Shown here piece by piece: positions 1,730-32,456 of a stretch of 64,000 nt of DNA (the first letter of the stretch is position 1; every line of letters starts with the position of its first letter). The notes beneath the pieces are model-generated. The model had not been told where the DNA came from. It did not search any database and was given only the letters and a program-made list of their open reading frames with translations. Location: assembly GCF_029227915.1 (NCBI RefSeq), contig NC_079888.1:14801001-14865000 (forward strand), read 5' to 3'. A program made the position numbers and the translations under genes. The stretch comes from Hydractinia symbiolongicarpus (taxonomy: Eukaryota; Cnidaria; Hydrozoa; Anthoathecata; Hydractiniidae).

Positions 1730-3595
1730 TTTTTTTTATATTTCATGCTGTTATTAGTGGAAGTTCTAAAGATCCGCAGAATTCTGTCATTGAAACTTCG
1801 TATGCGTTCTAAAAGAAAAATAGAAATTCTTTTATATAAAACAATTATACTTCAATTTCATAGTTTTAGCTTCATTTTACTAACCTCTCTAAATTCGCCT
1901 ACTATATCTCCTGTACAGAAGGATTGAAGATAGGATAGCATCGAGGGTGGAAGTAATCGAATTTTTTTTTTACCAAGAGGTTTCTAGCCCAATAGCAATA
2001 AAAAGAAAATCGAATTTTTCTTGATGTTTTCGATGTTTTCTTTCTAATATTTACGGCATCTTTTAGTGTAAAAATGAGCAGGCTGCCATCGTATCTAGAT
2101 AAAATAAAAATTGAATTATTTGAAAGAATGTAAACAAGGTGGAAGCTTGTTTATTGAACAAATCAAAACTGCTTACCCTGCATCTCGCATGTTTTTTCTA
2201 ACTTGTTCTTCCAACGACAAAACATTGCCTGGGTTTCCTTTGCTGTTTTTTTTCTGCAGTGTTTTATTTGCTTTTGACATTTTTATATTCTTATTGTCAC
2301 AAATATTTTCACCAAACAAAAATGAAAGTTGAATAGAAACGTTTTTTCGAACCCCCTGACGTGACAAAAATATCATCATGTTAGAAACAAATGCTTTGAG
2401 AATTATTAATTTTGTTTTATTATGACAGGAGGCATTCGTATGCACAAAAAATGTTGATTAAGAGTTCCGCAAGTTCACTTTAAATCACTAATGAATAATT
2501 AAATATTCTCCTTATTTAATTCTTTTTTATATTAATATATTTTTGAGATATACAAGACAAGATACTTCAGTGCAGCTTGCGTTACTGTAAACCTTTTTCA
2601 TTTTCAATTTCTTGCAAACAATCACAGGTCGAAATAAAAAACTTTCCCTGAATAATTTTTTCTTAAAAAGGATCTGTCTGAAAAATTCATTAGATGACGT
2701 CATGAAACTTTCGTTTTCGGCTTCACGAGTGTTTGATCTCTATTCGCGTGTCTCATTTTAATTGTCAGCGAATTTGGATGCAAAAGTGATTGAAAGAGAA
2801 AGGAAAAAAAAGAGTTTTATTTTTATGATCTCACCCTCTGTCAGAAAGAATGGAAATTCTAGAATCCACCATTTACCATCATGCTTCCCTTCTCTTTGGA
2901 TTTAAGGCTCAACCCGGACATGCCCCATCTGGTTTAAACACACGTGCCTTACAGTCCATCTCGTTGGTAAAAGAGAAAAATTCTCTTATTTAACAACTGT
3001 AAAACGTGTCAGACTTAATGCGGAGGGAACATTTACAAACTTCGCTAGGCAATGTTAAATTAAAGTTAACAACATTACGCCGGGGAGAACGAAACAGTAA
3101 AAAGCGATAGAAAATCCGCAATGCAAACCGTGCATTTGGTAAGAATCCTTAACAGGCTGGTATGATCTGGTGGATCCCAAATGCTCTATTAGGCTTAATG
3201 TTCCTAAAGAATCCCTAGATCCCCACAAAGCTTCAGTGTTAATTGACCCCTTATACGAGATACCGCTTTCGACCCTTCCTGGTTTGCCTAACAGTCGGGG
3301 CGGTGAGTTGGATAATTTAGGAGAACTTCTGATATTCACACAGCACAATCATCGTATATATAAAAGCATTTAAAAATCATTTACTGGCCTTCTTGAATTT
3401 TCTTGCTTGTCCTATTTTTAGAAATGACGTCACAGCATAAAAAAGCTAAAGCCACAACTATAAAACCTCACAGAAAACATATTGCCGTGAGCATTTTTTA
3501 TCGAAATGTAAAACAAAATGGGACTCAATAACGCTGAAGTTACTTTCGGCTCCGTAATTGTGATATTAATGCGCATAAATCTTGTCACCAAACCT
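1730..3595. other. Non-coding or unrecognised stretch
   Basis: I recognise no gene here. Short open frames on either strand lack family motifs. About 90 bases at 2510-2605 match 15320-15640 with an internal deletion (shared landmarks TTAATTCTTTTTTATATTAA and GACAAGATACTTCAG), so part of this region is another interspersed repeat. Confidence 0.4.
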
Positions 3596-3599
3596 CTGT

Positions 3600-6215: not shown

Positions 6216-6219
6216 TTAT

Positions 6220-7191
6220 TTTTAATGCTCCCAACGTCACGTCTGCATTTGATTCCTCAAAGTTTAATTTCACGGACTTTCAAACCATCCTTCATACTCG
6301 TCGGAATGCATCGTCACCCGGATTGAACCAAATATCCTACACTGTTTACAAGAATTATCCTCAAATTGCGTCCTTTCTTTTCAACCTTTTCCAATCTTGT
6401 TTAAAGAATTCCTACATTCCTGTTTAGTGGAGAGTCGCTTCAGAAGTTTATATCCCTAAAAACAAGCATTCATCTTCATCATCCATTAAGGACTTTCGCC
6501 CAATAGCTCTCCTCCATGTGGAAGAAAAACTTTTTTTCAGTCTTGTGTCAACCACTTTATTAACAAATCCATTCCAAAAGGATGTATGGAAAAAGTCCCT
6601 GGTTGGTGGGAGCATATGTCTCTTGTCTGGGCTGCTCTGACAAACGCAAAGTCTAGGAAAAATACGCTATCTGCAATGTGGCTTGATGTCGCGAATGCGT
6701 ATTCCACCCTGAGAAACGCCAAGTCTAGGAAAAATACACTATCTGCAATATGGCTTGATGTCGCGAATGCGTATCCCACCCTATGTAATCATTGAATATG
6801 TGTGCGCCGAAGAAGAGTTAAATAGTTGTGTTCCGCCTGGCGATTTTGAACATCTTCCGGTTAAGGCCTTTATGGATGACATATTTTTAATGTCTTCAAG
6901 TGTCCCTCAAACTCAGAACTTGTTTGATCGTTGTGTAACAGCCCTTCATTGGGCTGGAATGGGCTTTAAACCTTCAAAATCACGAAGCATTGTTATAGCT
7001 AATGGAAAATTTTTAGATCAGTCTTCTTTTTGTGTCCTGCAAAAACCAATCCCATCTATTCACGCAAACCCAGTTAAGTTTCTTGGTCGGACGATAAATT
7101 CAACATTGTCAGATTCAGCTGTTGCCAACAGGTTATTGTTAACGCTGTAGAGCAAGTCAAACTCATAGATAATTCTTCCCATAGAGGCATT
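6220..7191 (+). pseudogene. LINE copy A, reverse transcriptase part (5' of the hAT insertion)
   Basis: Pieces of an R2/NeSL-like reverse transcriptase can be followed in order. They are SPGLNQISYTVYKNYP and WRVASEVYIPK, then DFRPIALLHVEEKLFF, VPGWWEHMSLVWAAL, LDVANAY (motif A), AFMDDIFLMSSS (the catalytic x-M-D-D box) and KFLGRTINSTLSDS. A stop interrupts NSYIPV-W, a frameshift lies near 6545-6585, and about 60-70 residues between motif A and the MDD box are deleted. The frame runs up to the hAT element and resumes on its other side, so this is the upstream half of one LINE. The N-terminal part of the LINE protein is absent, consistent with 5' truncation near 6.2 kb. Confidence 0.8.
6647..6790 (+). 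repeat. 72-bp in-frame tandem duplication of RT motif A
   Basis: Two copies of a 72-base unit (second copy starting 72 bases after the first, for example AAGTCTAGGA at 6649 and 6721) lie head to tail with a handful of differences. Because 72 is 24 codons, the frame is kept and the block AKSRKNTLSA-x-WLDVANAY appears twice. The duplicated block includes the first catalytic aspartate of the polymerase. Confidence 0.9.
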
Positions 7192-7494
7192 CAGGGGCGG
7201 ATCTAGCAAATTTTCTTTGTAGGTCATGATGAATATACAGCTGGGGGTCTTGGGGGGCGCTTTAAGCCCCCCAAGCAGGGTCTGGGGTGGAGCCTCAGAA
7301 GCTTTCGCTAAAACGGGCTTTGCGAACCCTAAAATAGGCTTAAACGGGGACAAAAAACAACCTCGTATGCAGACGTTTTAGACCTTGATAACAGAAACGA
7401 AACATTCTCATAAACGCCGCAGCTCCGCATAAACACTTCAAATAGAAAAAGAATGACAACTTAAATGTTTTTCGTTAGCATAAATCATTTTTAG

Positions 7495-11861: not shown

Positions 11862-11904
11862 GCCTTACTTATATTTATACCAACATGCTACAAATTTTGA
11901 CAGG

Positions 11905-12345: not shown

Positions 12346-12472
12346 ATGAGAAAACAAGGAGAAATATTTCGATCTTCAGATTCTTGGTAAATTCGACAGA
12401 ATTCGATTTCAATCCTCGGCATTTTTTTACTAGGTCGCGTGACAGGGTTGACCTAGTCTAAATCCGCGCCTG

Positions 12473-13560
12473 GCATTCACAAAGTTTGGTTTTTGCATCA
12501 TCTTCTAATTCCCCGAATACGATGACTCTTTTTAATTTACGAATTTCCGCAATCTCGTATTGTTTCACTAGAGTAAAAGTTTTCTTTCTTCATAAGAAAG
12601 TGGTTGAGACTGCATCACTCTGTTTCTAACATAAGTTTGTATTCCGCTTCATCGCCATGCTCATTACCTTTAAAAAAGTCTATCCTCTGTACTAAAATCT
12701 GCTAAGATCAGCGGTCATCTCCTGCGAGATTTGGCTGATCCTCTAGTCTCAGACTCTCCTCCAGACTTAAGGGCTGGACACTGGAAGGTAGATCAGACAG
12801 TAAAATCAGCAGAGAGTCAACTCGAGTTCAAGAAAATACTTGGTTTCCACCAGTTTGGTAGAGCAGGCTTGGGACTGGTAAGCCATAAAAGTGTCCCAGC
12901 AATTGGTACCCATTCTTACCGCAAACTTGTATGAGCTGTTGTGCAGGACAATGAGGAAGACATCTATTATGCTCGAGCCGTTCAGCTTTATGTCCAAGGT
13001 AACTGGACTAAATGGTGCTCGTTTATTAAATACGATCTTTCTTGGAAGAACCTACTGTCTTTGCCGCAAAGTTTATCTTCGTTTTGCATCGGCGCAACCT
13101 TTGACACGCTTCCTTTTCCTACAAATCTTGCCAAGTGGGGAATTCAAAATGACAAAAGTTCCCCCTGATGTAAAAAACCCTCTTGTAACGTGTCCCACAT
13201 TTTAGGCGCTTGTAAATTAGCCCTTTCACAAGACAGATTCACGTACCGCCAGGATACTGTTCTACGTGTGTTAGTGACAGCCATTCAGAAGTTCTTATCC
13301 GATTATGAGCCAGCAAAACCATCTAGATGTCATAAAATATCCTTTGTTCCAGCGGGTAAACGTCTTCCCACCAAAAAGCCTTCAAAAATTCAAGGTATCC
13401 TTCACCTGGCCTCTGATTGGAGATGTCAGACTTAGATTCAACCTTAACAGTACACCTTATCTTGCTGTACCGCAACTTCGTCCGGACATACTTTTAACTT
13501 CTGCCATCACCAAACCTGTAATTATCCTTGAATTAACTTGCCCATGCGAACACTTCTTCA
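12473..13560 (+). pseudogene. LINE copy A, reverse transcriptase C-terminus and R2-type endonuclease
   Basis: The frame resumes from the hAT junction as GIHKVWFLHHLLIPRI, AKISGHLLRDLADPLVSD and KILGFHQFGRAGLGL. After a frameshift at about 12930 it reads ARAVQLYVQGNWTKW and DTLPFPTNLAKWGI, then a region matching the HILGACKLALSQDRFTYRQD zinc-knuckle block. After another shift there is PYLAVPQLRPDILLTSAI and then KPVIILELTCPCE. LRPDI followed about 15-20 residues later by ELTCP is the PD-(D/E)XK-like signature of R2-type (restriction-like) endonucleases. A deletion then joins ELTCPCE directly to the middle of the USP domain. The order RT, zinc knuckle, endonuclease is as in R2/NeSL-like LINEs. 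Confidence 0.8.
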
Positions 13561-14245
13561 TTTCTAAATGCATTAAAAGGCCATGTTTCGATTACAAGGA
13601 GTGCTGCTTTTAATCCGTTTTCTCAGCAAGATGCCCCAGAGATTCTTGAGTATCTCATACCAGAGTTGTTCTTATCCTTTCCTTTCTGGTAGATTATTCA
13701 ACACTCGTGTGAAAATCTGCACTACTTGCAGCGCTTGCCATAATATTAGCACCTCTGAGCAAGTAAGTCCATTTCTTCAACTGCCCTTGACATCGACTGT
13801 ACAATCTTAAGTAGATAACTTTTTGGAGAGCGAAGAATTGTCAAGTGTCAACTCGTACTTCTGTCACTACTGCAATAGTCACCAAACTGCAACAGTTGAA
13901 AAAGAGGTCGCAGAGTGCAGTTCAATTTTGGTTCTGCAATTTAAGCGCTTTGCCTATAACAAAAGTCTTGTGTCAAAAGGTTTGTTCTCCTGTCGCATCT
14001 TACCTGGGCACCGCTTCTATACCTATCACTGTAGACAGTGAAGTCTCTTGTCGCAAGCACTACAACTTAAGGGCTGTAATTAATCACGCTGGAAATTTGA
14101 AAAATGGTCATACACTACTGTTGCTTATAACCAAGTGCATGGTAAGTGGTTTCGATGCAACGACAGAGCAGTGGTCCCTTGCAAACAAAGCTTGCTTAAT
14201 GGTGTACAACCTTACATCCTTTTCCTTGAAGAGCTTAGGTAAATT
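13560..14245 (+). pseudogene. LINE copy A, USP-type deubiquitinase domain (Cys box deleted)
   Basis: In frame after the endonuclease remnant come FNPFSQQDAPEILEYLIPEL (the USP QQDA box), CTTCSACHNISTSEQVSPF (a zinc-ribbon pair) and ESEELSSVNSYFCHYCNSHQ (the second CxxC). Then come ILVLQFKRFA and, after a shift, NLRAVINHAGNLKNGH (the catalytic histidine box). These are in the correct USP (peptidase C19) order. The Cys box that should precede QQDA is missing because a deletion joins endonuclease to USP, and compared with copy B roughly 600 bp are gone. Several frameshifts follow. USP enzymes remove ubiquitin from proteins; this copy cannot be active. Its value is that copy B shows the same fusion independently. 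Confidence 0.82.
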
Positions 14246-14905
14246 GCAGTCAGCACCACAACTTCCGGCTTATGTGAGCAAGGGGGTTTTGACTATTCTT
14301 ATTTTTTTTTTTTTTATTTTTTTTTTTTTATTATTATTTTTTTTTTTTTTGTAGTCTTGTCTTTGGAGAGTGACGACTCCACCTATTACCCCAGTCAAGA
14401 TAAAAGCGAAAAACAAAAAAATTACGCCAGCGAGGAGGGTTTCACTGTACCAGGTCCTATCTTTGGAGAGTGACGACTCCACTTATTACACCAGTCAAAA
14501 AGGAAAAAACAAAAAAAAAAAACATTATGTCAGCAAGGGGGTTTGACTGCACTGGTCTCTTCTTTGTAGAGTGACGACTCCACTTCTTACCCCAGACACA
14601 CAAGATTGTACAGAGTACAACAGATGAAAAGTTATGGATAAAAGAAATGTCTAGTTCCTGCTGAAGACTGTTTGCAGACCTCTTGTGAGGTGACTCAGCT
14701 AGACAGAAGTCCTGTCCTACTCTCTCTGTCTGTTTGTTTGTTCAATTTTTGTGCCAATTATCTTCTTGGAAAAAGGAAGAATTGTGTTCCTTTAAATGAG
14801 CATATTCTTTAGAGGAGCAAAACCTCTAGAATTTAAATTTTAAGACTTAACTGGTCGAGTTTATCATTGTGCGTGCACTTTGTAATTTTCATTCTTCATT
14901 TACGG
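14246..14905 (+). repeat. LINE copy A 3' UTR with three 100-bp hairpin repeats
   Basis: After the USP stop there is a T-rich tract (14301-14352), then three tandem units with CTTTGGAGAGTGACGACTCC at about 14361 and 14461, and a variant at about 14561 (spacing 100 and 101). GGAG...CTCC forms a short stem. Near 14775-14905 comes the terminal block shared with copies B and C, with stem TAGAGG-AGCAAAA-CCTCTA. The homology ends around TTTTCATTCT, taken as the LINE 3' end. Confidence 0.75.
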
Positions 14906-15734
14906 TATATTTTCAAAACGATTAAAGTTGAGAAAAATGATACACGCGATTTAAATTCAGACTGTGGTGAATATGTGGACATATTTTTTTTCTGTAAACT
15001 TGTAAACTTTTGAGACAAATCCCTTCACAGTTGGCCACACCGACTTTTTAAGAATTTTGACTATATTTTTTTAATAATAATATTGTAGAACAAACTTTTA
15101 TATTAACAAGTACATGTATGCTTTTATAATGTTTTTTTAAAGGAAAGTTGAAAAAAATGCTTTATACAGAAGAGGTGTTATTTACAATACCGCTACCTTA
15201 ACAACCCTGCCGTCCTTAGTCAAAATATTGACAGGGTGGTCCTGTCGTGACAACCTCCTGTGTAAGGCTGAGTGTTGGGGCCCTGTAACACATGTGGAAA
15301 GCCAGAGTCACACAGGAGGGTTTTATTTAATTCTTTTTTATATTAATATATTTTTGACACATACATTTTTTCTATATGTGTTCAAACTGTAACCAGTCCG
15401 TTTATGCTGTTAGCTCTGTCTTTTGTCGTATTGTTTGTGATAGAAGGATTGTTTTTCTCTTTACGATTTTCTTAAAAAATAGCTTTAGTTCCAAGTTGGG
15501 CAGTACTCATGCTTGTAAGAAGCAAGAAAGTGTATTCAGCACCTTCTTCTGGGAGCCGAATCCTAGTTTTTACAACCACCGTCCCTGTAGACAAGATACT
15601 TCAGTACAGCTTGCTGTATTGTAAGCTTTTCTTAACTCATGAAACTTCTTTGCAATCTCCGTTGTCCCCTTTTTTCAACCCTAAACCTTGCATTAACATG
15701 GCCGTAAGCAAGCTTTAAAGCCAAAGAAAGTTTG
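14906..15734. other. Spacer with repeat fragment
   Basis: No gene is recognised. About 15320-15640 shares two blocks with 2510-2605 (TTAATTCTTTTTTATATTAA and GACAAGATACTTCAG), separated here by about 200 extra bases. This is probably an old interspersed repeat downstream of the LINE. Confidence 0.4.
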
Positions 15735-16032
15735 TTAAAGGGAAAGTTCGGTCAAAAAAAAGTTTTTTATTTTATAAAACTTTACTTCATTAAACTTGGA
15801 GTTTCGGAAATGTCCCCAATGTTTACAGAAAGTTTTTTAAGAAGCGCGTCTGAAAAAAAAGCTGGGTTCTAACTCTAGTATGACGTTTCATAGTTCAAGA
15901 CATTGCATCGTATGAAAGAGTCACAACACAGGCTACACAATTTGCTAGAACAATCTACTTTTGTCTAGCTATATTTTCAAATCTGTAACAAGTTACTTCT
16001 TTGAAAATGCAGTGTTAGTTTTGTAAGCAATG

Positions 16033-17041
16033 GATTAAATTCGAAGCGATTCAAGTTCTTATGAAGATGAAAATGATGACATACCTGATTTATCCACTCT
16101 CAGACCCTTTAATTTTGAACCAGAACTTTCTTTGGAAGAACTGAATAAATTAGAAACGTGTAGTTCCGAGTGATGACGAAGAGAATGAAGTTTCAAGGAT
16201 CGGCAATAATAACTGATGCTAATGCGTTGGTCACTGTAGAGCAATTGAGTCGTACAGTGAAAGGGATACAAATGAAATTCCTGACAACCATTTTGAAGGT
16301 AAAATAAACAAAAAAATTAGCCAAGCATAATTTTCTTTTTCGTGTTTAAAACCATAACAAAACTCTGCATATTCCCTTTAAATATTGCTCTTTGCGTTGA
16401 TAAAAAAAATATGCCTACGAACAGGTCAACTGACGCAAAACTTCTTTCAAAATATTTTGCGTAACATGTGTGTTTTCTTAAAAACATTAAACTCTCCTTT
16501 GCATATATTTTATTCTTTATCATTCGCTACTGCCACAACAATCTCCCAAAAAAATATTCCGCTTTACAAATCGAATGAGAACGTGCGCTCAAAAATCAAA
16601 ACTTGAGACGGGGATCATTTTTTAAGATTTTCTTTTTAGGAAAACAATGTATAACTGAAGCCGAAACTTTCGGGATGGTTTGTCAGTGTAAACCAGTACT
16701 AACCACTGCACTGTCTGCCCTAAGTAATTTTAGGGGCGTACAACGCACACGGATAATTGTTACGTTTTTTCATTACATCTTATTTTAGGCGTTCAGGGCA
16801 AGAAAGGACTTCGGAACAAACTTGTGTTATATCACAATTTCTTTTTAGTTCACTACGTTTTGCCGGTTATAAACAGTACACGTGGTGGATACATAGCAGA
16901 TTGAGAGAAAGTGTGCAAAAAGTTATACCGTCGTGTGCTTTATGGACAATTCGTATTAAATATCCATCTGAAAATAGTATTTATATTCCATTTACGGAGA
17001 GCTATCCGACGACAAACGGCTGTATGAAAACACGATTCTGA
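16033..17041 (+). pseudogene. P2X7 C-terminal-like (ballast domain) gene of the Kolobok element
   Basis: Three exons can be followed. Exon 1 (to 16298, donor GAAG|GTAAAA) reads SDSSSYEDENDDIPDL, RPFNFEPELSLEELNKLE, then after stops GHCRAIESYSERD. Exon 2 (from 16640 after TTTTTAG) reads GKQCITEAETFGMVCQC. Exon 3 (about 16850) reads RFAGYKQYTWWIHSRL, QKVIPSCALWTIRIKYP and SIYIPFTES. The pattern RF-x-x-Y-x-Q-x-T-W-W, VIPSC and IR..YP is that of the cysteine-rich intracellular domain of P2X7 (PF20478 type), which occurs without the ion channel in many fish and cnidarian genes. Stops at the start (M-D-stop) and after CSSE show it is dead. No transmembrane channel part is present. Its role in a transposon is unknown. 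Confidence 0.72.
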
Positions 17042-17874
17042 TTCTGCGTAAAAGAACCAACTTCAACCTTAGAGCTAAAGAAGGGATTGAATACTAATGA
17101 TTAAAAAAAATATTACTATGTAAACCTTGTTTTCATATTTTCAATGGCTTCTTTTTTATCTGGTTCCTCTCTTGGCGCTATATAATTTGGAACATCGCCG
17201 ACTTTGGGAGCTGGGTACCCTTCTTTAGTTGTAACCAAATGCTTAACTTCACTAACAATATCCTCTACTTTTCCATGTAGACTTTTTTGACAACCCATGA
17301 GTCTGTAATCATCGAGTATTGTTGCTTATAGTGATGCTCTCCAGACGATGTTTGTGCGTGGGAGGAGCCAGCTCCTGCATTAAAGCTAAGAACGGCGAGT
17401 TGTGACTAGCAATCACTCCTGCAAAGGTAAAATGTAACCTCTTAGGGCAATATTTGTTGTAGAGTGAGTGGTAAAATTCGAATTTTCCTGTCTGTTTGAA
17501 CTCGACGAAGTACTTTAAATCACGCAACAAAGACTTAGACCGAACTACAGTTTCAAGGTCTTTGTAGACAGGCGTTCCTTCCATCAACCATTTTTTTGAT
17601 CGTTGTTCTAATTTAGATAGTTTAGCGTGTTCACATTTGTCACATATTTTGTTGCTTTCCCATTTGTGTTTGTTCTTTACATGACATAACAAACTCAGTC
17701 ATTTCTCTCGTAACTCTACCACGTTACCATTACAAGAGGCGCAACACCACCAGAAATGATTTGCGGCAGCTTTTACTCAAGGAAGCAAATCTTTAGCATT
17801 TGTTTTCTTGGCACAATTGACCAACTTCTTTTTAATGTTTTTTCCCATTTGCCATACATCAAAATAGTGTTTAA

Positions 17875-17975
17875 TATACTAACGTTCTTCTCGCATGTAC
17901 TTCCGGACAAAATGGTGTTTGATATCCTTCCGTTCTCGCGTGTACTTCCGAATTTGAACGTGCCTGTCAGTTACA
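17875..17975 (-). repeat. Short tandem duplication inside the transposase
   Basis: On the minus strand, CGGAAGTACACGCGAGAA is followed about 57 bases later by CGGAAGTACATGCGAGAA, giving RKYTRERKDIKHHF then RKYMREER-stop-YIKHYF. The unit lies just after the catalytic VTDRH motif, so the nuclease core was altered by slippage or unequal exchange. Confidence 0.75.
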
Positions 17976-18445
17976 ATGCCATCAATTAAAAATAACAATC
18001 AATCCTTGTTTTTCCATGCGTGACGAATTTCCAACTTGGCCGGCATGAACTGCATTAAAGTCAACTATTTCATTTGATTTTAAATTATGTAACGTGCAAG
18101 TTCTGTACTTTGCACTGTAACCTGGTGAATCACACCTCCCTTCGCCTGTTATGTGTAGTACCTTTTTGCTTTCTAGGTAAGACTGAAATCGTATTCTCCG
18201 AAAATATATTTTGTGAATCGCTTGGAATATGTAATTTTTTGTATTTCGTAAAAGGTGGTTTTGGACAAAAATGTATTTTTTGCGATCTGCATCATTTCTT
18301 TAACGCGTTGGTGTGTGTTACCGGAAATTAAAATGGCTTACTCACCAGTGGTTGCGATGACCATTCGTCAGCATGATGATCACTGCACAACAAATGTACG
18401 ATTAGTTGAGTCCTTTTAACTGCAATTTTATTCATTTCAGCTGGC

Positions 18446-19193
18446 TTAACCCTATTCGGACCGGGGGGGGGGGGGGGGGCGGATTCCGCCCCCCTCCCCT
18501 GACGGGTTTTTTTTTAATAACTCCTAATTGCTTTCTTATATGGCTATGATACTTACTGAGTTTCAACATTTATCTATTAAACACCTGCATGCTAAATTTT
18601 TAGGTCCCCTACCTTTCAGAGGCTTTGATATTGGCCATTATTCGAAACTACCCCTAATCCTTATAATGGGGAAAATGTAATAACTCCTGTTAGGATTATC
18701 CTTAGAACTTAAAACTTGCAACACAACTTTGTTTCATCGAGAAGAATCATTTTGAATAATTTTGACACGTGACTAATCCAATTTCCCGATTTTGTCGGAT
18801 TTTACCAAAAAATCGGAAAAAAAGAATTTACGGGCAATTTTTGGCAATTTTTTATCCGATCCATGTAAAAACCGGAAGATATGTTAAAAAATTTCATTTA
18901 GCTTTCAGAAACTTCAAACAGAATGTAAAAATTCGCTCTAGAACAAAAGTAATTATATTTTAAGCAGATAGTTGCATTTTTATCAATTTTCAAGCTTATG
19001 ATGACGTCACAGAATATGTACTGTCGCAAGCAAAAAATTTTTGCCACCATTTTGTGCCTTTTATGACGTACTATAAGTGTGCCAAGTTTGATTCAATTGG
19101 AACAATCCTATGGAAAGTTATTGAGGGAATCCGCCCCCCCCCCCTTCCCCCCTGTCATAGTATGTTCAAAAAACCCGGACCGAATAGGGTTAA
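18446..19193. mobile_element. MITE with TTAA ends and G/C-run subterminals (copy 1)
   Basis: The left end TTAACCCTATTCGGACCGGG and the right end (minus strand) TTAACCCTATTCGGTCCGGG differ at one base. TTAA at both ends suggests a TTAA target duplication. Just inside the ends are long G and C runs (about 18465-18480 and 19132-19152) that pair as inverted repeats with GGCGGATTCCGCC-like palindromes. No protein is encoded. It interrupts the Kolobok transposase gene. Related sequences occur at about 22975-23440 and 44415-44740. Confidence 0.85.
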
Positions 19194-20833
19194 AACAACG
19201 AAACAAAATCGTAGCAGGTAGAAGGCAAGACCAACAAACGATAAAACACGTGCAGTTTAGGTTGGGAATGTCCGCATAGGAGTCGATATCATTCTCACTA
19301 TCTGGTAGATTTTCCAAGTTGAACGATTCTCGTATTCTGAAAATTCTTCTATGAGAGACATCGATATTTTTTCTACGTCGGGTGAGAACGAAAAATTGGT
19401 ATTACAACATTTGTCCTTCTTTTTTTTTTGCTTTTGGAATCTTTACTTTTATTGGAGCAACTAGATTCTAACCTTCTCATGACTCACACATAGTGATGAT
19501 TGACATTGAAATGTCTTTAATGACTTGATAGCATTGACATATTTATCAATGCATTTGTTTCAGTCTGGGTTTCCATTACTTGTTTTTTTCAGATTGTGTA
19601 GTATCACTTGCGTCTATTTCCAGCATAGAGTCAATTTGCTAGAAGATAACCAAACAAAACTTCATTTTAAACCAACCCTTTGTATTGCAAAAACATATAG
19701 ACACTTATTTTACCTGTCGTTTCGGTCTTCGATTCTTTTTACTGTTCTGTTATGTTTCCCAGGCTGTTTCGTAAAATTAAACAAGGTCGGAACAGCACCA
19801 TCTTTTAATTTCTTTCCCGGTGGGGAACCCATTAATTCAGCCTAAAAATTTAAAAATAATAGATTTTCATTGCCCCTAACTTACGAAAGCACATGTTCTT
19901 GTAGGGTTTTTTGATGTGAAAAAAACATTCAGCACTGGGTGAAAGAAAATGCGAACATGCGGAGGAAATTTAATGATTGACATGGTTTTGGTTTAGAAAT
20001 GGCTATAATAAATGAAACTGTGTTGGTGAAACATAGGTAACAAAAGGACTTACTTGTAAATCTCTTTCGAAGCACTCTGGTTCAAAATGTTGAGAACAAA
20101 TATAAAACCCAAGAGACTTTCGGCAAGGTACCACTTCTTTTTATATTCTGTAGCCATTATTCCGAAGCTCTTTATCTTTTTTCGCACTAGGAATCTAATA
20201 AAATACTACGCGGATTTTTCTTTCATTGTTACATTTTCCTTCCTCGTAAGCTTTTCGTTGTCTACCTCCTTATTTTCCTCGCTTTCCTTACCCTTTTTTG
20301 TCTTTTTATTATTGCTACTTCGATTTGTACAACCGATGGCAGCACAGTTTGGCATATTGAAATAATAAGTATGTATAAACAACACCCTTCTTCATGTAAT
20401 TACACCTAATTCCTAACAGCAAACTTCGCTTTTTGAAGTATAAAACGTCATAATTCAAACTCGACCAACCCTTTGAAAAAACGTAAAGGGGTCAGTATAC
20501 GAAGGTGTTTTTACGTGTGGTTAACACAAATTATTTCAAAAAAATAAGTTATCGTATTATTTTTTTTCCTTTATGACCATTGATTATGAAAATATAATCT
20601 TTGACCGAACTTCCCCTTAAAAGCTAGGTACGTTTTCTCCATCATCATTTCGAAGGAAAAACCAGCCAAACGTTTGGTTGCTTCTAAAACCAAATAAAAA
20701 TATTTGTGAAGAAGACAACCTTTTAATTAAATACAATGCATGGATTCGTTTTTACGCATTTCGAAAACGAGTCCGCCTAAAATTCGCATCTTCTGTGAAG
20801 TGTTTGAAGCCTTTTTTAATCCTTTCCCACTTA

Positions 20834-21126
20834 CAATGAAAGAACCATAGGTAAGGATTAACTCGTCTTCCATGACTAAGTGCTTAATTTCATCATTGTT
20901 AATGGGTCACACAACAAACTCTTCCAACTCTAAAGAACCTCCAGCTGGCTTTTTATGTGGGTAAAGTACCAGTTCGCACTGACTTTGAATACCAGTAAAA
21001 CTATCGGATGACTCTTTTCTGCACGCATCTATGACAATGCTTTTTTTCATATCACCAGAAAAGTAAAATCCCAAGCAGATTGTTTTTTCATTCGACTGTC
21101 TACAAACAATTATGTCCCCATAACCA
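20834..21126 (-). pseudogene. Unknown minus-strand coding exon
   Basis: A frame without an ATG, possibly entered through an acceptor AAG near 21128, reads GYGDIIVCRQSNEKTICLGF, YFSGDMKKSIVIDACRKESS and CELVLYPHKKPAGGSLELEE. It passes one TGA after EEFVV and continues NNDEIKHLVMEDELILTYG. The GDIIVxR...F layout resembles the DITVGHILSVY..DDNETFWL exon at about 31.5 kb, so both may belong to one kind of transposon gene. I do not recognise a named family. Confidence 0.4.
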
Positions 21127-21439
21127 GCTTAACCAACCTTAGAATTATGAAAAAAGTCCCGTTATTTTCTTAACGTCTCGAGTAGAATTTAACACGTGTA
21201 AAGCTACAGCCAGGTACACAAGTCCTGGCGCACAGATCGTTGCATGCTTTAGTTTACATTTGTTCCGTTAGAAATTATTCTATGATTTATCCGTTTAAGG
21301 ATAGTTTAGTGATAAGTCCTTTAATGTTTTTTTATTAGTGTTTTGTGCTTTGTCCTTTTTAATGGTCATTATTTTTTCTGAGAGAATCCATTTTTAAAAG
21401 GGAGAGTTACAACCTCTATAATATCTAACCAGCCGTCAT

Positions 21440-21770
21440 TAGACAAGCTATATCACAACAGCCACCTGCTTTGTCACTTCATCATCAATTTGCGACAGTT
21501 ATTGGTTTTGGCAGACGGTGTCAATGAATGTGGCTAGTTTCTTGCGGGAGGCAGGGGATACTTACTCAAGTGCATGCACCAGATCCCAAGCATGAGTGAA
21601 TTTTACCAATCCTCATGTTTCCACATTCATACGTGTTTGTTTCTGTACAGTCGAAATCCATTACCTTTCCGATTATCCTTGTAAAAGGAGAATGCAGAAG
21701 TTCCTCAGCGGCTTCTTATTCTTTGGAGAGAAACCTCCTTTTTTTTTCATTAAACTTTCCGTCTTAATTT
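21440..21770 (+). repeat. Interspersed repeat, LINE 3' tail-like, copy 2
   Basis: The segment 21628-21765 matches 5-145 (CGTGTTTGTTTCTGTACAG, GGCTTCTTATTCTTTGGAGA, T-run, TTCATTAA). The 190 bases before it look like the upstream part of the same tail (CACTTCATCATCAATTTGCG and CAATGAATGTGGCTAG) but have no second copy in the window. No coding sequence is seen. Confidence 0.5.
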
Positions 21771-21892
21771 TTTAATATGTGGAGTCCTGTACTTTTGTTT
21801 TTATTATTGAAGTCAGATTAGACCTGTCTTGCTTAGATTAGCGGTTGTTTATTAGATATTCTGTGATATAAAATATAAAGAATCAAAGATAT

Positions 21893-22610
21893 TCTCATTG
21901 TAGACTGAACAGATTCAGCATCGTCATCATAACTTTCTACGTCCTCATTTACTGTGTCGCATATGCTAGGGAAGTCTCCAAATAATCCAGAGTCGTTCCC
22001 TAATGACATCTTAAAATTTAAAGCAACAACAAATCAAATACTTCGTCAGAAAGAGTAATATCAACCATTACTAAGGTTCGTTCAAACAAAAAAACAGCAA
22101 CAAGCAAACAAGTAACTGAATCAGTGTACCTTTTGATCTTAAAATACGTTACCAAATATCTTGACAAAAAAATCTTTATTACTTCACCACGCCCCACACT
22201 ATACTATTTACTTACATGATTGAGCACACTAGCATTATTGCCTTCACCAGGTGGTCCAAATTGTCATCGTTGTCAAGTCTAACAACAGCCTAATGAAATA
22301 ACGTAATCGCATAGGTAATTTAGCATCAATTTAAAACGTTCTTCATTATTCTTTACAAGACGTATACATTCTAAATTATCTCCACTTGACAAGCCAACTT
22401 AATCTCTTTTATGGTTGGACACTATACGTAAGTGAATAAATTTGTAAAAACAAAAAATAAGGCATTACGCATTACATTATGCAACGTGTTAAATTAACTA
22501 CGTATTACAAACCTTACGAAGTGTCATATCGTTACCATCATCAACTGTAGGATCGAAATTTGCTTCTTTTATAACAGTTTCATCACAAATGGTCTGAAAT
22601 AGATTAAGAG
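21893..22610 (-). pseudogene. Small acidic exons of an unknown minus-strand gene
   Basis: Three short open pieces with plausible splice borders occur on the minus strand. The first is TICDETVIKEANFDPTVDDG (22594-22515). The second is AVVRLDNDDNLDHLVKAIM (about 22290-22220). The third is MSLGNDSGLFGDFPSICDTV, NEDVESYDDDAES (22010-21900, after TTTTAAG). They are rich in D and E and resemble the acidic spacer exons of the Crypton-SET gene and of the gene at 30-32 kb. They may be the 5' part of the unknown exon at 20834-21126. There is no recognisable domain. Confidence 0.35.
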
Positions 22611-22974
22611 AAAGTCGAAGCATATAACATCAGCGTATATTAAAAAGTCTATCCATGTAGTTTACAATAAGAGACATGTTATTCCTTCGGACATTGCAAG
22701 CCAGCAATATTAATTTACCTGGTTCATACTAGGGGGTAAATTCTCTTTTTCTTACATTTCCTAAAGAACAAAAATTAATCAGGTTCACTTCGCTCCATAA
22801 TTAAACCCGAGACAGCATCAAAACTTAAAAAAATTTTCCTCGTGTAATGTAATTATCTATACTATATAAACTTGCTAGGATGGTTGCAAGTTATATTTGT
22901 AAGAACATAGGGCCTGGACATATACGGCTAGGTTGGCTTGGTTCGCTGTCATTCTTGGTTGTACACAAGATACA

Positions 22975-23440
22975 AAATTTTGAAAGACAATGTTTTTCTT
23001 GGCTTGACCCTATTCGGCGCCCCGTAATAACTTTTCATTACTTGTCCAAATTCAATCAAACTAGGGACACTTTCTACTACTTCAAAAAAGGAAAAAAAAG
23101 GCAGCAATAAATTTTTGTTTGCGTTAGCATATTTTTTGTGACGTCATCAAAAGCTTAAAATTTGTTCAAAATGCTAATATCTACTTAAAACTAAATTGCT
23201 TTAGTTATATAGCGATTTTTTACAATCTGCTTGAAGTTTCAGAAAGGCAAATATTAGTTATTTTCCCTATTATTAGGATTTTATGGCGATTTTTAGGAGT
23301 AGTTTCTAGTGATGGCCAATATCAATGCCTCTGAAAGCTATGGGACCTAAAAATATGGCATACATGTGTCTAATAGATAAATATTAAAACTTAGTAAGTA
23401 TCATAGCCATGCATAAAGGTGCCCTGAATGAAATCTATGA
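22975..23440 (-). mobile_element. Diverged copy of the TTAA MITE (copy 2)
   Basis: One end reads GACCCTATTCGGCGCC near 23007. Inside are blocks shared with copy 1 in opposite orientation, such as TCAATCAAACTAGGGACAC against the TGTGCCAAGTTTGATTCAAT stretch, and CTCTGAAAGCTATGGGACC against GGTCCCCTACCTTTCAGAGG. The second terminal repeat is not clear, so the copy is partial. Confidence 0.6.
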
Positions 23441-23739
23441 TTATTTTTTATTTAAAATGATTTTTGCCTTTAGCTGCTACGTACCAATGGACATAACGAT
23501 CTGCCCATTGATAACAAAAAATTGTTACCAGCTCCTCACACTTTTAATACTGTAGCCACAGCTATACCTAAATCCCAATTGTAAACCCACTAACAATATC
23601 TAATTTATATAGAAAGTCGGTCGGAAACAAATGGGATTGAAATTCATGGTGAGAAAATCTCAATAAAACATAAGCCTTTTCTTTGATGATGCTCCTATCC
23701 TATGTATCAGGAATTTTGCATTGGGCTATATGCATATAA

Positions 23740-24010
23740 TTTGTGTAGCAGTAGTAAGGCGAGTGCTACTGTATTAAAAAAGATCCTCGTATATATAAGC
23801 TTTCATCAAGACAAATTGGTCAACTCTCTGACAATTTTCAGCAGTTTAATGGTACTATACGAAAGGAAATAACAAGACAGTCCAGAAGGCTAAATGATTT
23901 TAAATGTTCGATAGTTACAGAACTTCGCCAATTCCTGCTTCTATACTGGTCTGATTGTTTTAACAACCCATCATTGCGAGAAAAAAACTATGATAATCAT
24001 ACTCTCTAAT
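23740..24010 (+). pseudogene. Transposon gene fragment (TELRQFLL block)
   Basis: An open stretch reads YCIKKDPRIYKLSSRQIGQ, GTIRKEITRQSRRLNDFKCS and IVTELRQFLLLYWSDCFNNP. It resembles the WKATEFRQFLLY...VL block common in repeated genes of cnidarians and other animals, often next to cysteine-rich transposase genes. It is short and has no start or end. Function is unknown. Confidence 0.4.
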
Positions 24011-24278
24011 ATTTGCGTTAAACTATGATAATCATATTTCCGCTGGATACCAATGCGCTCATATGTACTTAACTGGTTCGGATAAATTTTTCAGTCATAA
24101 AGCTGAAAAGACCGTGTAAATTGGTTGCCGTGATTTTCATTAGGCGATTGTTGATAATAATGGCAGGCATATGGCAGATTGACACAGATTGTGGCAGATC
24201 CTGCGTTTTGGTTTGATGGCTGTGAGATGACATTAATAAGTAGAAACTAGTTGGTTATATGAACAGAATTTTATTCAC

Positions 24279-27074
24279 ATGGATAGCAGTAAAAGTGGGA
24301 AAGCTGAAGGGACTCGCGTAGAGGTGAAGGAAGGTAAGCTAGATGCTATAATGTTATGAGCTCTATTATGGGCCCCAGCCCAGGCCAGTATAATATTTAG
24401 TAGGATATGATATACCCTAGTCCTAAAGCTATAAAACTACATAAAAAACCTCTTTCCATGTTTTTATTGCATTTGAATTTGAATCTGTTTGCCACTGAAT
24501 TTTCTTTGTACCGTGTATTATAGCATACAACACATGTTCAGCTCAGTGGGCATTTTCTTCACTTTTGTACTTGAGCTAGCAGCTAGACGGTTTTAAATGT
24601 TTCAGAAATTCTTTGAATTTGTTCTCGCTTCCTACTACAGTAAGAAAAATTTTTTTCATTATTATAGCTCACAAACTCTTGCAAACACTGCTGAAACCTG
24701 GTTTACCGACCAGAAAAAAAGCAAGATTTTTTGAATACAGCAGAAGTTCCAAGACTGGAGAAAGAATACTCGAGGAGCACGTAATAACAAAACGCAGGTA
24801 CAAAAAGAAAACAAAGCCGAGAAATAGAACTGCAGAAACATACTCATCAAAACAGAGAGTTATTTGCTCTAGGTGTTATACATACATAGGCAGTACTGTG
24901 CCAGTACTCCTATATATTTTGGATAAAAAAAGAGAAAATTATGAAATGGAAAATGATAGCTATGCATTCATATTATATCTTTGTTTTCTTTTTAGATAAT
25001 GTCACGCCTGAAAGTAGTATTGCAACAAATGAAATTGTCAATAATACTGAAAATATATATGGTATATTTCTTGAATTATATATCCACTAAGTTAACAATA
25101 ACTACCCAGCTGCTAAAGAGCATTCAATCTGGCAAAGCAAGCTAGTAATAAAGTAATTAAAATAAATATAATTACATCTATTTTAAGGTACTGAAATCAG
25201 CAATGAAATTCCTAATAGAAGGGAAGATGTGTTCACCAGGAGCACTGAGTTGTTAAGGACTATGATTCGGCCAGTTGGTAGGAAAAAATAAAAAAATAAA
25301 TCTTGGTTTGACCGAACAAAATCTAATAAAGATAAGTGGCGAAGAAATAGACCTTTAATTTGGGAAATTATGTTGGCAGTAGAAGAACTTACTGGGTTTT
25401 GTTCTGTATGCAATGACAGAGGTGCAGTCATTAGATGTGATGATTGCTGTAACAGTGCTCTTTTTGGATGGAATTCAACAACGTATAACTCCGTTGGAAG
25501 CAATAAATGATAACATGGACATTAAACCAACAGGCATGTGTACAGTAGCATTTATTGTATAATGATTTAGTGTAAGGCACTGCTTTTATAACTTTCGCAC
25601 CTTCATTGATAACTGTGCCAATAGGAACTGAAGAGGTTGTCCTAACTAAATAATTATAATGTAAATATTGTTTTTTATGCTGCAGTAAAATCCGTAAAGC
25701 TCAAGTGTTTCTCTTGTGAGCATTGCGATGGAAAAAACATAAGACAAGAGGATACTGATAATATCTGTATGGTGGTTACATTGAAAGATTTGTATGTCAG
25801 ATAAACATATGCGACAAATAACGTTATTTTCAATATATTCATATTAATTTATATCCATGTGTATTGTATATTTATAGGGCGGTATGACATTTTCAAATAT
25901 AGAATTTATGTGAAGACTGTGGCGGCATTCCCATTTGATATTAGCTCAGTGCTAAAATCAGGGTATTGTCCTGGGAGTCCGTGTTCCATTAATCATCTGA
26001 TTAAAGAAGTTGTTTTTATATTATGGGATGCATTTCGTAGCAGAATGCCTGGTAGCTCTTTAAAGGCATTCCTTACATCATTATGTGATATTGGTGAATA
26101 CTATGGATACGTTTATTGCTTCAATATTTTTTACTTTGTTCTATATTAAGAAATGATATATAGTTCATGCATATTTCAAATTCTGAAAATATTTTGTATG
26201 CTCAATAAAAAATTTGCTTACGTGTATATATATATACATTTTCTAGACAAACATGATCAATGTCAACACATTCTCATCGTCATTTAAAGAATGGAAATAT
26301 TGAAGACATGAGAAAGACGTGATTCAAATGACGAACTGGCTTGATTGTCTGCCATGTACAGTAAAACAACACAGGTATCATGTAGATGGAAACTGTAAAT
26401 TATACAGATATTCCTCTTCCGGCAAGTAAGACTAAACTAACAAGTTTTTGCCATATAAGTACCAGTTCTATTATTCAAGTGCAAATTTCTATCTTAAAGG
26501 TATTTTTAATGCATTAAGTATAAAAGACAATTATTAATTTTTATAAGGCGAAGAAGGCCATCATATTATGGTGAATTGCTCTTTTGGTCAAATGAAAAAG
26601 TATATTCATATATGGAACAACTATATGAAAATTGGTCTTTTGTAAGCAAGGTTTGTGTTTTTTCTTAAATGTATCTCTTTTCATGTTATCTGTAATAGTA
26701 AATTGAAATATACTTTGTAATATCCATATATTTGAAAAATGTGTTTTGATTTTACTTAACAAGGGTGACACACAATGTGGGGGCGATGGTCAGCAGCAAG
26801 AAATGTGAAAAGGAAAGCGAAATCGCTAGATAAAACAGGCCTTGAAGGCATGTTATAGGACAGAAAGCTGTAAATATGTTCCAAGGAGAGGTTTTTGGGT
26901 ATTCCTTGTTTATAATGAAGGAATTCATGATTCCAAACAGTGTGACATTTTATTTTGCTGATGTAATATGTAAACTTTGGAAATTCATCTGCAAACATGC
27001 AACTGACATTTCAATTGCAATTAAACCAGCTCTATCTATTGTGCATGCTAAGGCACATGCCCACGACTGCCAAG
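24279..27074 (+). pseudogene. KDZ (Kyakuja-Dileera-Zisupton) transposase-like gene, interrupted
   Basis: A multi-exon plus-strand gene. Exon 1 (24279-24333) is MDSSKSGKAEGTRVEVKE before GTAAGC. A basic exon (24668-24797) and exons at 24996, 25189 and 25290-25500 follow; the last has TGFCSVCNDRGAVIRCDDC. Later exons give KLKCFSCEHCDGKNIR, SGYCPGSPCSINHLIKEVVF, then MTNWLDCLPCTVKQHRYHVD-GNCKLYR at about 26330-26425. Then come GDTQCGGRWSAARN, AVNMFQGEVFGYSLF and PALSIVHAKAHAHDCQ (to 27074). The W-x-x-C-x-x-C....HVDGN-x-KLYR motif and HAKAH are hallmarks of KDZ transposases. Some exon joints do not keep phase and one exon has a stop, so it is degraded. The C-terminal part expected after HAKAH is not found; LINE copy B starts about 400 bases later. 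Confidence 0.75.
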
Positions 27075-27474
27075 TATGTTTTTTTTGTAATAATATTTTA
27101 TATAACATACATGACATAAAGATTCTGGTTTATACAAAAATGTTTTTAAGTTCAGACCCCCAAAATATTTTTATTTTGCGAGAAAAACAGGCGACCAAAA
27201 TTACAAATTTATGATTTAGTGAAAATGAGTTGTACCCTTTTATCGTAACTGATGACAGCATGTCTTGACATAATGTTGATTAAATGTTGATTATGTAGGC
27301 CTTAAACTCGACAAGAAAAAAAATACTTGGATTTCCTTCTTTGCGTTTTGTTTTTGTGTTATTCGCTTGTAGCCACTTTTTTTTCTTTGTGTTCCTCTTG
27401 GGTAGAGCGTATTTCTTATGCTTTCATGCGTCATTCGCTTGTTCATTAGTCTGCGTCGTGTGTGGTTCTTATTT

Positions 27475-28178
27475 CAAAAGGATTTTAGGTTTGCATCAGA
27501 CTGGTCGAGCTGGCTTAGGGCTCTTACACCACAAAAATATATCACCAAAAGGCACTTATGTCATGACTCGGTTTTAATAGTTTTGGTTAAGGCATTAAAA
27601 GAGTTTTTTGTATCATATGAACCTCTTAAGGTTTCCAAGTGCAACGAAATTAATTTCATTCCAGCCGGTCAATCACCATCTAAGAAGAGGCATACAAAGT
27701 GTCCAGGCCTTCTTCACCTTGCTTCCGATTGGAAAATACTGTCAGATTTAGATTCCGTTTTAGTTGTTCCACCATACATTGCAATAACACAACTACGCCC
27801 AGACGTTATTAATATCCAGTTCTTCCAAAACTGTAATTATGTTAGAACTGACTTGTCCATGTGAAGAGAATACGGAATATTGGCACAAACGAAAGCTTAA
27901 CAAATATTCTTCATTTTGTTATGCTATGAAAAACAATGGATGGATCGTGCATTTCTTTGCCATTGAGGTGGGTGCAAGGGGTTTCTGTTCAGAATCAGTA
28001 AGGACCTGTTTTCGTCGCCTTGGTTTCCCTAACAAGCCTTTGCGTTCCCTATTAAAATCCCTAACTTTTGCCTCCATGAGTGCTTCTTTTTACATCTGGA
28101 TGTCTCGAAATTCTACCACTTGGGTTGAGCCTGAAAAAGCCCCAATCATTCCTGAAGTTTGTTACAAATATGGAATGT
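27475..28178 (+). pseudogene. LINE copy B, RT C-terminus and R2-type endonuclease
   Basis: The frame reads GLLHLASDWKILSDLDSVLV, PYIAITQLRPDVINIQFF and, after a 1-base shift near 27835, MLELTCPCEENTEYWHKRKL-NKYSSF. It continues CYAMKNNGWIVHFFAIEVGA and RGFCSESVRTCFRRLGF. LRPDV ... ELTCPCEE ... HKRKLNKY is the PD-(D/E)XK-like core of R2-type endonucleases, more complete than in copy A because the downstream part is kept. The endonuclease is followed by about 45 residues of linker before the USP Cys box. Confidence 0.8.
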
Positions 28179-28179
28179 G

Positions 28180-29156
28180 AGAAATCAAAAACCCCTGAGA
28201 AATCTTCCGCAAGTGCCACAAACTCTTGTAAAATCAAAAAACCCGAAGAACTTGCTACAAGGTCTTCCAAAACAACAGTCGCATTGCCATCTAACCCGGA
28301 TTTTAGGAATAGCGGTCTAAAAAACTTGGGAAACACATGTTATGCAAACTCAATCTTACAATGTTTTTATAACCTTCCAAAAGTTAAAGAAGCCATTTCT
28401 GGCAGCTAAACAACCTCAAAGTTAGGCGAAGCATTTGTAGGTGTTTTTCAAAGTTTGGCTGTTTCTAGAAGTCCAGTTGATCCCTCCCATTTTTTTGCGT
28501 GCTATGCAACATCATATCTCAGCTGCGAAGGGAAGTGCATTTAGTATCTTTGCTTAGCACGACGTCCCCGAGGTTCTTGAATATCTCCTACCTGGTCTGC
28601 CATTAGTCTTCTTAGTATTGGCATCAAGACATCAACCACTTGCAATTCATGTCATATTACCAGCTCCTCAGAAGTTATAACACCATGCATCCAACTTTCT
28701 CTGCACCCTACGTTACAATCTTCTTTAGATAAGTTCTTTGAAAGCGAGGAGTTGTCACACACCAATGCCTACTTCTGCCATGCTTGCAACGCTCATCAAA
28801 CTGCTCTAGTTGAAAAAGAGGTAGTGTCGTGCGGTTCCCATCTCATTTTACAGCTAAAACGTTTTGCCAGTGCCAACGGCCTTGTTTCAAAAATTGTCTC
28901 TCGTATTACTGCTTACCCTGGTACCCTTTCCATACCTTTTACCGTAGATGGAGAAGTGAAATTTCGTAAAAATTTTCAATTAAGGGCTATTATCAACCAT
29001 TGCGGCAACTTAAATAATGGTCACTACACAACCATAGCATTCGACCAAATGGTTCACAGGTGGATCCATTGCAACGGTAGAGCAGTAATTTTCTGTGATG
29101 ACCGACTTATTAACAGTCACGAGTCATATGTTTTCTTTTTAGAAGAGCTGAGGTAA
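28180..29156 (+). pseudogene. LINE copy B, USP-type deubiquitinase domain
   Basis: The Cys box GLKNLGNTCYANSILQCF (about 28313-28366) holds the expected nucleophile C. After a stop near 28407 follow a QQDA-equivalent box with Q changed to stop (A-stop-HDVPEVLEYLLPGL, about 28555-28605), a zinc pair region and ESEELSHTNAYFCHACNAHQ. The tail then reads LILQLKRFASANGLVSK, FQLRAIINHCGNLNNGHYTT (histidine box, about 28980-29030) and WIHCNGRAV, ending FLEELR at 29156. All USP (C19) boxes are in order, so this copy defines the full domain that copy A lost in part. Two or more stops and frameshifts make it inactive. A host USP pseudogene is unlikely because endonuclease and LINE tail flank it. Confidence 0.85.
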
Positions 29157-29700
29157 GAATATTTTAACCAGAATGAGTCAGCAATTGTGCTTGGCTACAC
29201 TCAGTCTTGTCTTTGGAGAGTGACGACTCCACTTATTACCCCAGTTAAAAAAAAATAAAAAAAATAAAAAATATAATATTAGCAGGGGGGTTTGATCACA
29301 CACGATCTTGTCTTTGGAGAGTAACGACTCTATTATTGCCTGAGTTAAAAATAAAGAATAGCAAAGTTAAACAGAAAGTGATCAAAGTTTATTATAAGAA
29401 GATAGGGATGTCTAGTTTCTGCTGATGACCGTCCGCGGACGTCTTCGTGGTGACCCAGCTAGACATCCAGGGTACTTAGGTTCAGAAATATGGGTTGAAA
29501 CCTACCTGCCCTTAGTTAAAGTTCTGTTCATCTTTTCAAATGTGTTGTGTCCTTTTAATTCCTTGTAAAAGGGAGAATTGTGCTTTTTGAGGCATGTTCT
29601 CTAGAGGAGTACAACTCTAGCTTATTTCCAAAGACCTAACAGGTTGAGTTCATCATTGCGGTGGCTTGCCACCTCTTTGTAAATTATTTTTTTTTACAGT
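29157..29700 (+). repeat. LINE copy B 3' UTR with two hairpin repeats
   Basis: Two tandem units carry CTTTGGAGAGT-A/G-ACGACTC at about 29211 and 29311 (100-bp spacing). A terminal block at 29571-29690 matches copies A and C. Its stem-loop reads CTAGAG-GAGTACAA-CTCTAG, differing from copy A (TAGAGG...CCTCTA) while keeping the pairing. Confidence 0.75.
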
Positions 29701-32205: not shown

Positions 32206-32283
32206 TAAATTGTTAGCTGCTAGATGGATATGGATTTAATCCACACCTCGTAATAACGACGCACTAGCGTTTTATTTTATCAG

Positions 32284-32365
<82 letters not shown>

Positions 32366-32448: not shown

Positions 32449-32456
32449 AGATTCAC

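Follow-up and report, generated by a model that had tools for sequence, protein, structure and literature searches.

Several unrelated transposons have taken up proteases of the ubiquitin family. An Ulp1-like protease is described for NeSL and Utopia-1_TSP (PMC4640811), VTD members encoded by Helitrons and Helentrons have been assayed and are active (PMC9741609), Ginger1 transposons carry a C-terminal OTU or Ulp1 domain, and a protein of Trichomonas vaginalis joins transposase_11 to Peptidase C19 (both PMC2836005). Here we describe long interspersed nuclear elements (LINEs) of Hydractinia symbiolongicarpus, a small colonial sea animal and laboratory cnidarian, in which a restriction-like endonuclease (RLE) is followed by a ubiquitin-specific protease (USP) domain at the C-terminus of the protein. 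The element was noticed in a 64,000-nt stretch of the genome (C14:14801001-14865000, hereafter the window), in which an earlier note, drawn from the sequence alone, had described two copies, A and B. Protease-bearing transposons are known (Ulp1, OTU, VTD and one USP-transposase), and a C-terminal USP on a LINE appears to be new: searches of an open-access library aimed at it, including under non-long-terminal-repeat (non-LTR) retrotransposon combined with deubiquitinase and RLE, named no LINE with a USP among the papers listed. A published repeat table of the species holds 1,415 R2/R4/NeSL elements (0.18%) and 48% unclassified repeats (PMC10411563).

We read the element as an RLE LINE lineage whose single protein bears at its C-terminus a USP, probably captured once, that would act in cis on that protein or its ribonucleoprotein (RNP), and we put the probability of this reading at about 60%.

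Intact elements elsewhere in the genome

The H. symbiolongicarpus assembly (480,894,487 bases, 76 contigs) was searched with the UCH model of Pfam (PF00443), which, with 149 of 1,016 candidates scored, gave at least 150 matches, the control genomes giving 0/14. In at least eight of the matches the frame is free of stops over 1,422-1,426 codons (1,426 in six, 1,423 and 1,422 in one each). The sequences of seven of them and of one 1,379-codon frame were examined, and Pfam was run on four open reading frames (ORFs) at loci L009, L013, L014 and L016, that is, on three of the eight long frames plus the 1,379-codon ORF. All four contain UCH (E from 5e-32 to 3.3e-30) and RVT_1 (E from 4.7e-17 to 3.1e-13), with zf-RVT below cut-off. 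In L009, a copy of the subfamily that we call F1, the first methionine is codon 6, and the protein runs from a reverse transcriptase (RT; residues 339-609) through a CCHC knuckle (872) and the endonuclease motifs KPD (978), E (995) and KVAKY (1011) to the USP (1137-1423).

A second search used a 270-residue query spanning the endonuclease-USP junction (F1 residues 961-1230). With 142 of 898 candidates scored, it returned at least 145 match rows, some copies being represented by two rows, and 112 of the 145 reach from query residue 130 or less to 200 or more. At least ten rows, the query's own locus included, reach the top score without a difference from the query. The support that the earlier note had asked for, namely many full-length elements in which a single ORF covers RT, endonuclease and USP, is therefore present, and a USP limited to the two window loci is excluded by the genome-wide junction and UCH matches. 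Chance similarity was likewise rejected, since the domain is complete and lies in stop-free frames elsewhere in the genome. Host-gene capture at two loci was rejected because the junction is crossed so often. That a host USP gene merely adjoins a few LINE copies, or that the assembly is wrong, is barely credible: nothing was found in its favour, the junction-crossing rows lie on at least ten contigs and in several diverged subfamilies, and eight frames are open throughout. Dispersed F1 copies are 99.6-99.7% identical over ~5.5 kb while their flanks differ, an identity that indicates recent spread.

Some junction rows ended at query residue 124-125, in a tandem array at C13:23678939-23703694 that comprises five or more units head-to-tail, spaced at ~5.3 kb. 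A USP-less subfamily was considered for this array and rejected, since in the one unit on which the check rests (L037, frameshifted and examined in part) a USP follows once the frame has changed. Among full USP matches of the UCH search, the highest score belonged to an 886-codon open frame at L001:478-3135 on the + strand; its USP is only 28% identical to that of the element over the matched part, and it is probably a host USP gene, intronless in that part. Viral contigs scanned with the 1,426-residue protein gave no match, and a PADLOC scan gave only a generic RT match.

Relation to LINEs with a restriction-like endonuclease

The RT is of LINE type, with RVT_1 in L009 at E=8.2e-16 and FMDD at residue 528. 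The reference RTs compared were R2 and LINE-1, both through the Protein Data Bank (PDB): R2 retrotransposon proteins (9nl2, 9nl3) and R2Tg (9dou) align through the RT, the best at E=2.9e-20 (9nl2), and LINE-1 ORF2 matches less well (1.4e-11). Weaker R2 stretches, individually not significant, cover the knuckle and the endonuclease collinearly. Because the R2 alignments end at F1 residues 1069-1075, within ~25 residues of the R2 chain ends, the USP is a C-terminal addition.

By published motif definitions (PMC5678591, which gives the CCHC knuckle, the RLE motifs and the N-terminal motifs of the group), the knuckle expected before the endonuclease, CX2-3CX7-8HX4C, is present in L009 as CX2CX8HX4C at residue 872. 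The PD...D/E and KX2KY endonuclease motifs are also found in L009, and KX2KY in L020, L025, L026, L028 and others. As for the N-terminal motifs, the four ORFs gave no Pfam match at E<=0.01, and residues 1-320 showed no C2H2-like pattern either in F1 or in the second subfamily, F2 (L014), which aligns to F1 only from F1 residue 34. Since the C-terminal features are present and an N-terminal zinc finger pattern was not found, we use the label RLE LINE and make no claim of R2 membership. The protease is likewise not that of NeSL and Utopia, as no Ulp1 match occurred in the four Pfam-scanned ORFs and the domain is a C-terminal USP.

The USP domain and its likely role

The Pfam match to UCH covers the whole model (1-254 of 254, E=5e-32). 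A profile of nine element USPs, several with endonuclease parts attached, was compared with PDB chains and found USP8 best (2gfo, E=1.8e-38), followed by USP15, USP46, USP2, USP12, USP36 and others. For residue counts, 28 of 29 loci gave an alignment row with at least 80% coverage, and removal of seven near-identical F1 copies left 21 rows. The catalytic Cys is kept in 21/21 rows, the catalytic His in 19/21 and the Asn/Asp in 19/21 (16 Asn, 3 Asp), while the zinc-binding CxxC cysteines are kept in 21, 20, 21 and 21 of the rows; in the QQD box, the second position is occupied by Q in 13 rows, by H in 7 and by R in 1. The subfamily USPs are only 32-46% identical to that of F1. We conclude that the domain is a complete peptidase C19 domain and a predicted deubiquitinase.

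Separate maximum-likelihood trees of the linker (9 rows), the endonuclease (13) and the USP (21) give compatible groups, namely F1, F2, F3, A-type and B-type, with L037 beside F1 in the endonuclease tree. A sixth subfamily, L019, is represented in the USP tree only; in L019, too, the endonuclease precedes the USP. The joining of F1, F2 and F3 is weakly supported and long branches are flagged in the trees; an RT tree, with six rows only, is less clear than the others. Between subfamilies, amino-acid-changing sites differ far less than silent ones: the proportions of changed amino-acid-changing and silent sites in the USP are.37/.77 (F1-F2),.30/.87 (F2-L020) and.28/.78 (L026-L027, A-B), those in the endonuclease.31/.73 (F1-F2),.25/.81 (F2-L020) and.25/.65 (L026-L027), and those in the RT.20/.78 (F1-F2). 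From these patterns we infer one old USP capture, vertical inheritance and selection for deubiquitinase activity.

In the proposed mechanism, the USP would derive from a single capture of a cellular USP gene that predates the split of the subfamilies. Judging from its relatives, the endonuclease would nick DNA and the RT, by target-primed reverse transcription, would copy the RNA of a tandem unit, starting at a fixed 3' end. The USP would then strip ubiquitin in cis from the element's own protein or from bound host factors in the RNP, and this deubiquitination could keep the protein from being degraded or dislodged before integration. Put simply, the USP may help the element to escape the protein-disposal system of the cell.

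Several observations weigh against this reading. The 21 USP rows stem from six subfamilies and are not independent; two lack the His, and at the Asn/Asp position one row has Ser and another a gap. The USP is less constrained than the RT (.37 vs.20 of amino-acid-changing sites changed, F1-F2), no dN/dS can be given between subfamilies because silent sites are saturated, and ratios within subfamilies lie mostly between 0.3 and 1.5 (one reaches 5.3 on very few silent changes), which is as expected for decaying copies. That the substrate would be the element's own protein or bound factors is itself a guess.

The weaker constraint and the few copies without one catalytic residue would also suit a USP retained for its structure or for binding ubiquitin or RNA, with enzymatic activity irrelevant. 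We regard this as quite improbable in view of the retention of Cys, His and zinc cysteines counted above across subfamilies as diverged as these. A rather more serious rival, and the main one, is that the USP acts on target chromatin or repair factors, such as ubiquitylated histones or repair proteins, and so aids nicking or second-strand completion. The domain adjoins the endonuclease and would thus be delivered to the nick, and the Ginger paper (PMC2836005) suggests that transposon Ulp1 and OTU domains may switch on repair factors while the element transposes; how the solved USPs rank does not decide such a role, which we consider unlikely as the main one.

The ORF is one long protein, and viral proteases process their own polyproteins, so that the USP might in principle process the product of its own ORF. 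This is very improbable: the GG dipeptide occurs in 0 of the 1,426 residues of L009, and in 0/4 ORFs does a ubiquitin-like domain exceed the Pfam cut-off, a weak APG12 match at L016 613-670 lying below it. To return to the reading that we prefer, a cis-acting deubiquitinase, the intact near-identical copies allow a direct test that needs one catalytic residue of one protein to be changed, and the R2 relatives of the RT and endonuclease have already been studied in vitro.

Copies A and B in the window

The window was searched on both strands with blastn and tblastn for pieces of the element. Both copies were confirmed. They lie on the + strand, and in each the linker is followed by the endonuclease, the USP and the 3' untranslated region (UTR); the features are:

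2555..2601, +: copy A, 47 nt from the 3' terminus of a preceding unit, abutting the 5' region of copy A (a junction like that of a pseudo-long terminal repeat, pLTR); 93.6% identical to the F1 3' end
2838..3295, +: copy A, N-terminal coding part, frameshifted; tblastn to F2 protein residues 101-254
6230..7193, +: copy A, frameshifted part of the RT; matched piecewise by F1 residues 267-624 (tblastn), DNA 84-97% identical to L018
12472..13550, +: copy A, RT C-terminus, linker and first endonuclease part (LRPD...ELTCPCE); 92.9% identical to L018 over 1,088 nt
13548..14240, +: copy A, USP remnant without Cys box; tblastn to F1 and F2, Pfam UCH below cut-off
14241..14705, possibly to ~14914, +: copy A, 3' UTR in which a ~100-nt unit (GTCTTTGGAGAGTGACGACTCCAC...CCCCAG) occurs three times in tandem; blastn/tblastn
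15197..15630, +: 3'-UTR fragment of an F1-type unit; 86.5% identical to F1
21192..21487, +: 3'-UTR fragments of F1/F2-type units; blastn/tblastn
27471..27810, +: copy B, 5'-truncated start in the linker region, ~330 nt missing relative to L025; blastn/tblastn
27800..28129, +: copy B, endonuclease, in which ELTCPCEE is present and KX2KY has the form KLNKY; tblastn to F1 982-1087 (48%), translation
28170..29153, +: copy B, USP in which the Cys box, the CxxC pairs for zinc and the His box are present, frameshift near 28483; tblastn, Pfam UCH
29154..29693, +: copy B, 3' UTR with the conserved repeat found in copy A; sequence comparison

The earlier note had quoted the span 12473..29700. The interval is not a single feature, since it holds the last part of copy A (12472 to ~14705, and at least to 14595) and copy B (27471-29693), and the ~12.8 kb between them are foreign to both except for the small 3'-UTR fragments of other units; nor does copy A start at 12473, its N-terminal and RT parts being found further upstream. 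Copy A is split by two insertions, at 3296-6229 (~2.9 kb) and at 7194-12471 (hAT-like), and its last part begins at 12472, the place from which the earlier note had described it, because the second insertion, with an 8-bp duplication GGCATTCA, ends there. The claim of separate, diverged insertions with a common 3' UTR was borne out: copy A is L018-like (84-97% identical, piece by piece), copy B is L025-like (92.7% identical over 2,192 nt), and these represent two subfamilies that share the 3'-UTR repeat.

Relative to L018, copy A lacks ~590 nt, with which the KX2KY region of the endonuclease and the Cys box of the USP are gone; the His box ascribed to it is there, without the Tyr after GH. Pfam UCH reaches only E=0.009 on its piece 13815-14354, below the Pfam cut-off. 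Copy B does keep the reported Cys and His boxes, and UCH matches its 191-residue piece 28581-29156 at E=5.9e-13; the copy also carries several frame changes. Both copies are dead, and in neither can the whole protein be read in one open frame.

Other features of the window were recorded in passing. The hAT-like element at 7194-12471 contains a DUF4371 ORF on the - strand (9115-10647, E=1.2e-23) and at least three 98-nt tandem repeats at 11899-12193. Identical 300-nt copies at 49453-49752 and 53049-53348, 3,596 bases apart and with inverted partners at 51180, 54776 and 59450, probably reflect a recent 3.6-kb tandem duplication, the inverted repeats lying at matching offsets. Long tandem repeats, mostly of 8-base period, occupy 32119-32574 and the region from ~60662. 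At gathering score, no Rfam family was found in the window, L009, L011, L014 or L015.

Insertion sites and partial-tandem layout

Five F1 copies (L009, L011, L012, L013 and L015) share a near-constant 3' end, ...ACCTTTTTCA plus 0-2 bases. Their flanks are different in all five, so that site-specific insertion was rejected and the single 28S rRNA site that marks R2 is not seen. Target-site duplication was also rejected: three copies have longest matches shorter than 4 nt and the remaining two have 4 and 6 nt, compared with a mean of 4.1 nt and a 95th percentile of 6 nt in 500 random pairs. By eye, the 3' flank of L013 looks like internal sequence of a B-type copy (window near 27497), and clade members thus seem to be nested in one another.

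All six full-length F1 copies examined sit head-to-tail behind a fragment of a 3' end, of ~112, 208, 291, 480, 756 and 1,035 nt. A 35-mer across this junction (up to two mismatches) occurs 16 times in the genome and 0 times in the control; 11 occurrences are exact, and the five with two mismatches sit at ~5.3-kb spacing in the C13 array. A 38-mer of the F1 5' start (up to three mismatches) occurs 11 times, in every case at one of the exact junctions, so that each F1 5' start detected has a 3' end upstream of it. In the F3 copy L020 a 560-nt repeat of its own 3' end, 99.1% identical, lies just upstream of the 5' start, and copy A has 47 nt of a unit 3' end before its 5' region. No such repeat was seen in L014, L016, L018 or L028, in which the alignment to F1 starts at residues 34, 139, 217 and 31; because of these late starts, L014, L016 and L018 may be 5'-truncated.

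The simplest reading of this layout would be that the template RNA begins in the upstream unit, as in Penelope elements, whose promoter is likely within the pLTR (PMC11167929). Arrays of HeT-A, with tandem units and 3'-UTR promoters (PMC5537684), would likewise allow the RNA to start in an upstream unit. Template jumping is described for R2 (PMC12180492), and jumping of that style could have been the source of the first dimer; inheritance of the dimer is favoured since the junctions are identical in 11 places. The layout thus offers a second test, of the promoter source of an RLE LINE that is not site-specific.

A motif in the 3' UTR is conserved across subfamilies, consisting of CTTGTCTTTGG, then GACCCCACTT or GACTCCACTT, then CCCAG (L009 6773-6812, L020, copies A and B), and in A- and B-type copies it recurs in tandem repeats of ~100 nt. 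F1 and F2 also share a further 76-nt stretch at 89-91% identity, compared with 66-67% in the RT region. The conserved motif may be the RNA signal recognised by the RT.

A broader reading would place the clade between R2-type LINEs and Penelope, dependent both on a once-captured USP set against ubiquitin control of LINE RNPs and on obligate partial-tandem units with a promoter in the upstream 3' end. We hold it tentatively, at somewhat less than even odds.

Comparison with known systems

Like R2 and the other RLE LINEs (the CRE, R2, R4, NeSL and HERO clades), the element has a single ORF, an FxDD RT, the CX2CX8HX4C knuckle, KPD...E and KX2KY. Unlike them it has a C-terminal USP, no N-terminal zinc finger pattern that we could find, no fixed target in five copies and a partial tandem before every detected F1 5' start. 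That partial-tandem arrangement, seen at 11/11 detected F1 5' starts, in the F3 copy and in copy A, is shared with Penelope-like elements with pLTRs (PMC11167929) and with tandem HeT-A (PMC5537684), in which 3' sequence likewise precedes the next unit. The Penelope-like elements of that report use a GIY-YIG endonuclease; here the RT matches R2, the motifs are those of an RLE and the Pfam scan of four ORFs gave no GIY-YIG. HeT-A, unlike our element, is telomeric, and the passages cited on both systems mention no USP.

As regards the protease, NeSL and Utopia-1_TSP are RLE LINEs with an added cysteine protease of ubiquitin/SUMO type; as described, theirs is N-terminal and Ulp1-like, whereas that of the element is C-terminal and a USP (C19). 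Helitrons and Helentrons also encode a deubiquitinase with conserved catalytic residues (VTD or OTU; PMC9741609), but they are rolling-circle DNA elements and their proteases belong to other families. The Ginger1 and Trichomonas proteins resemble the element in carrying a ubiquitin-type protease on a mobility protein, C-terminal in Ginger1 and of family C19 in Trichomonas; both are DNA transposases, whereas the element described here is a retrotransposon.

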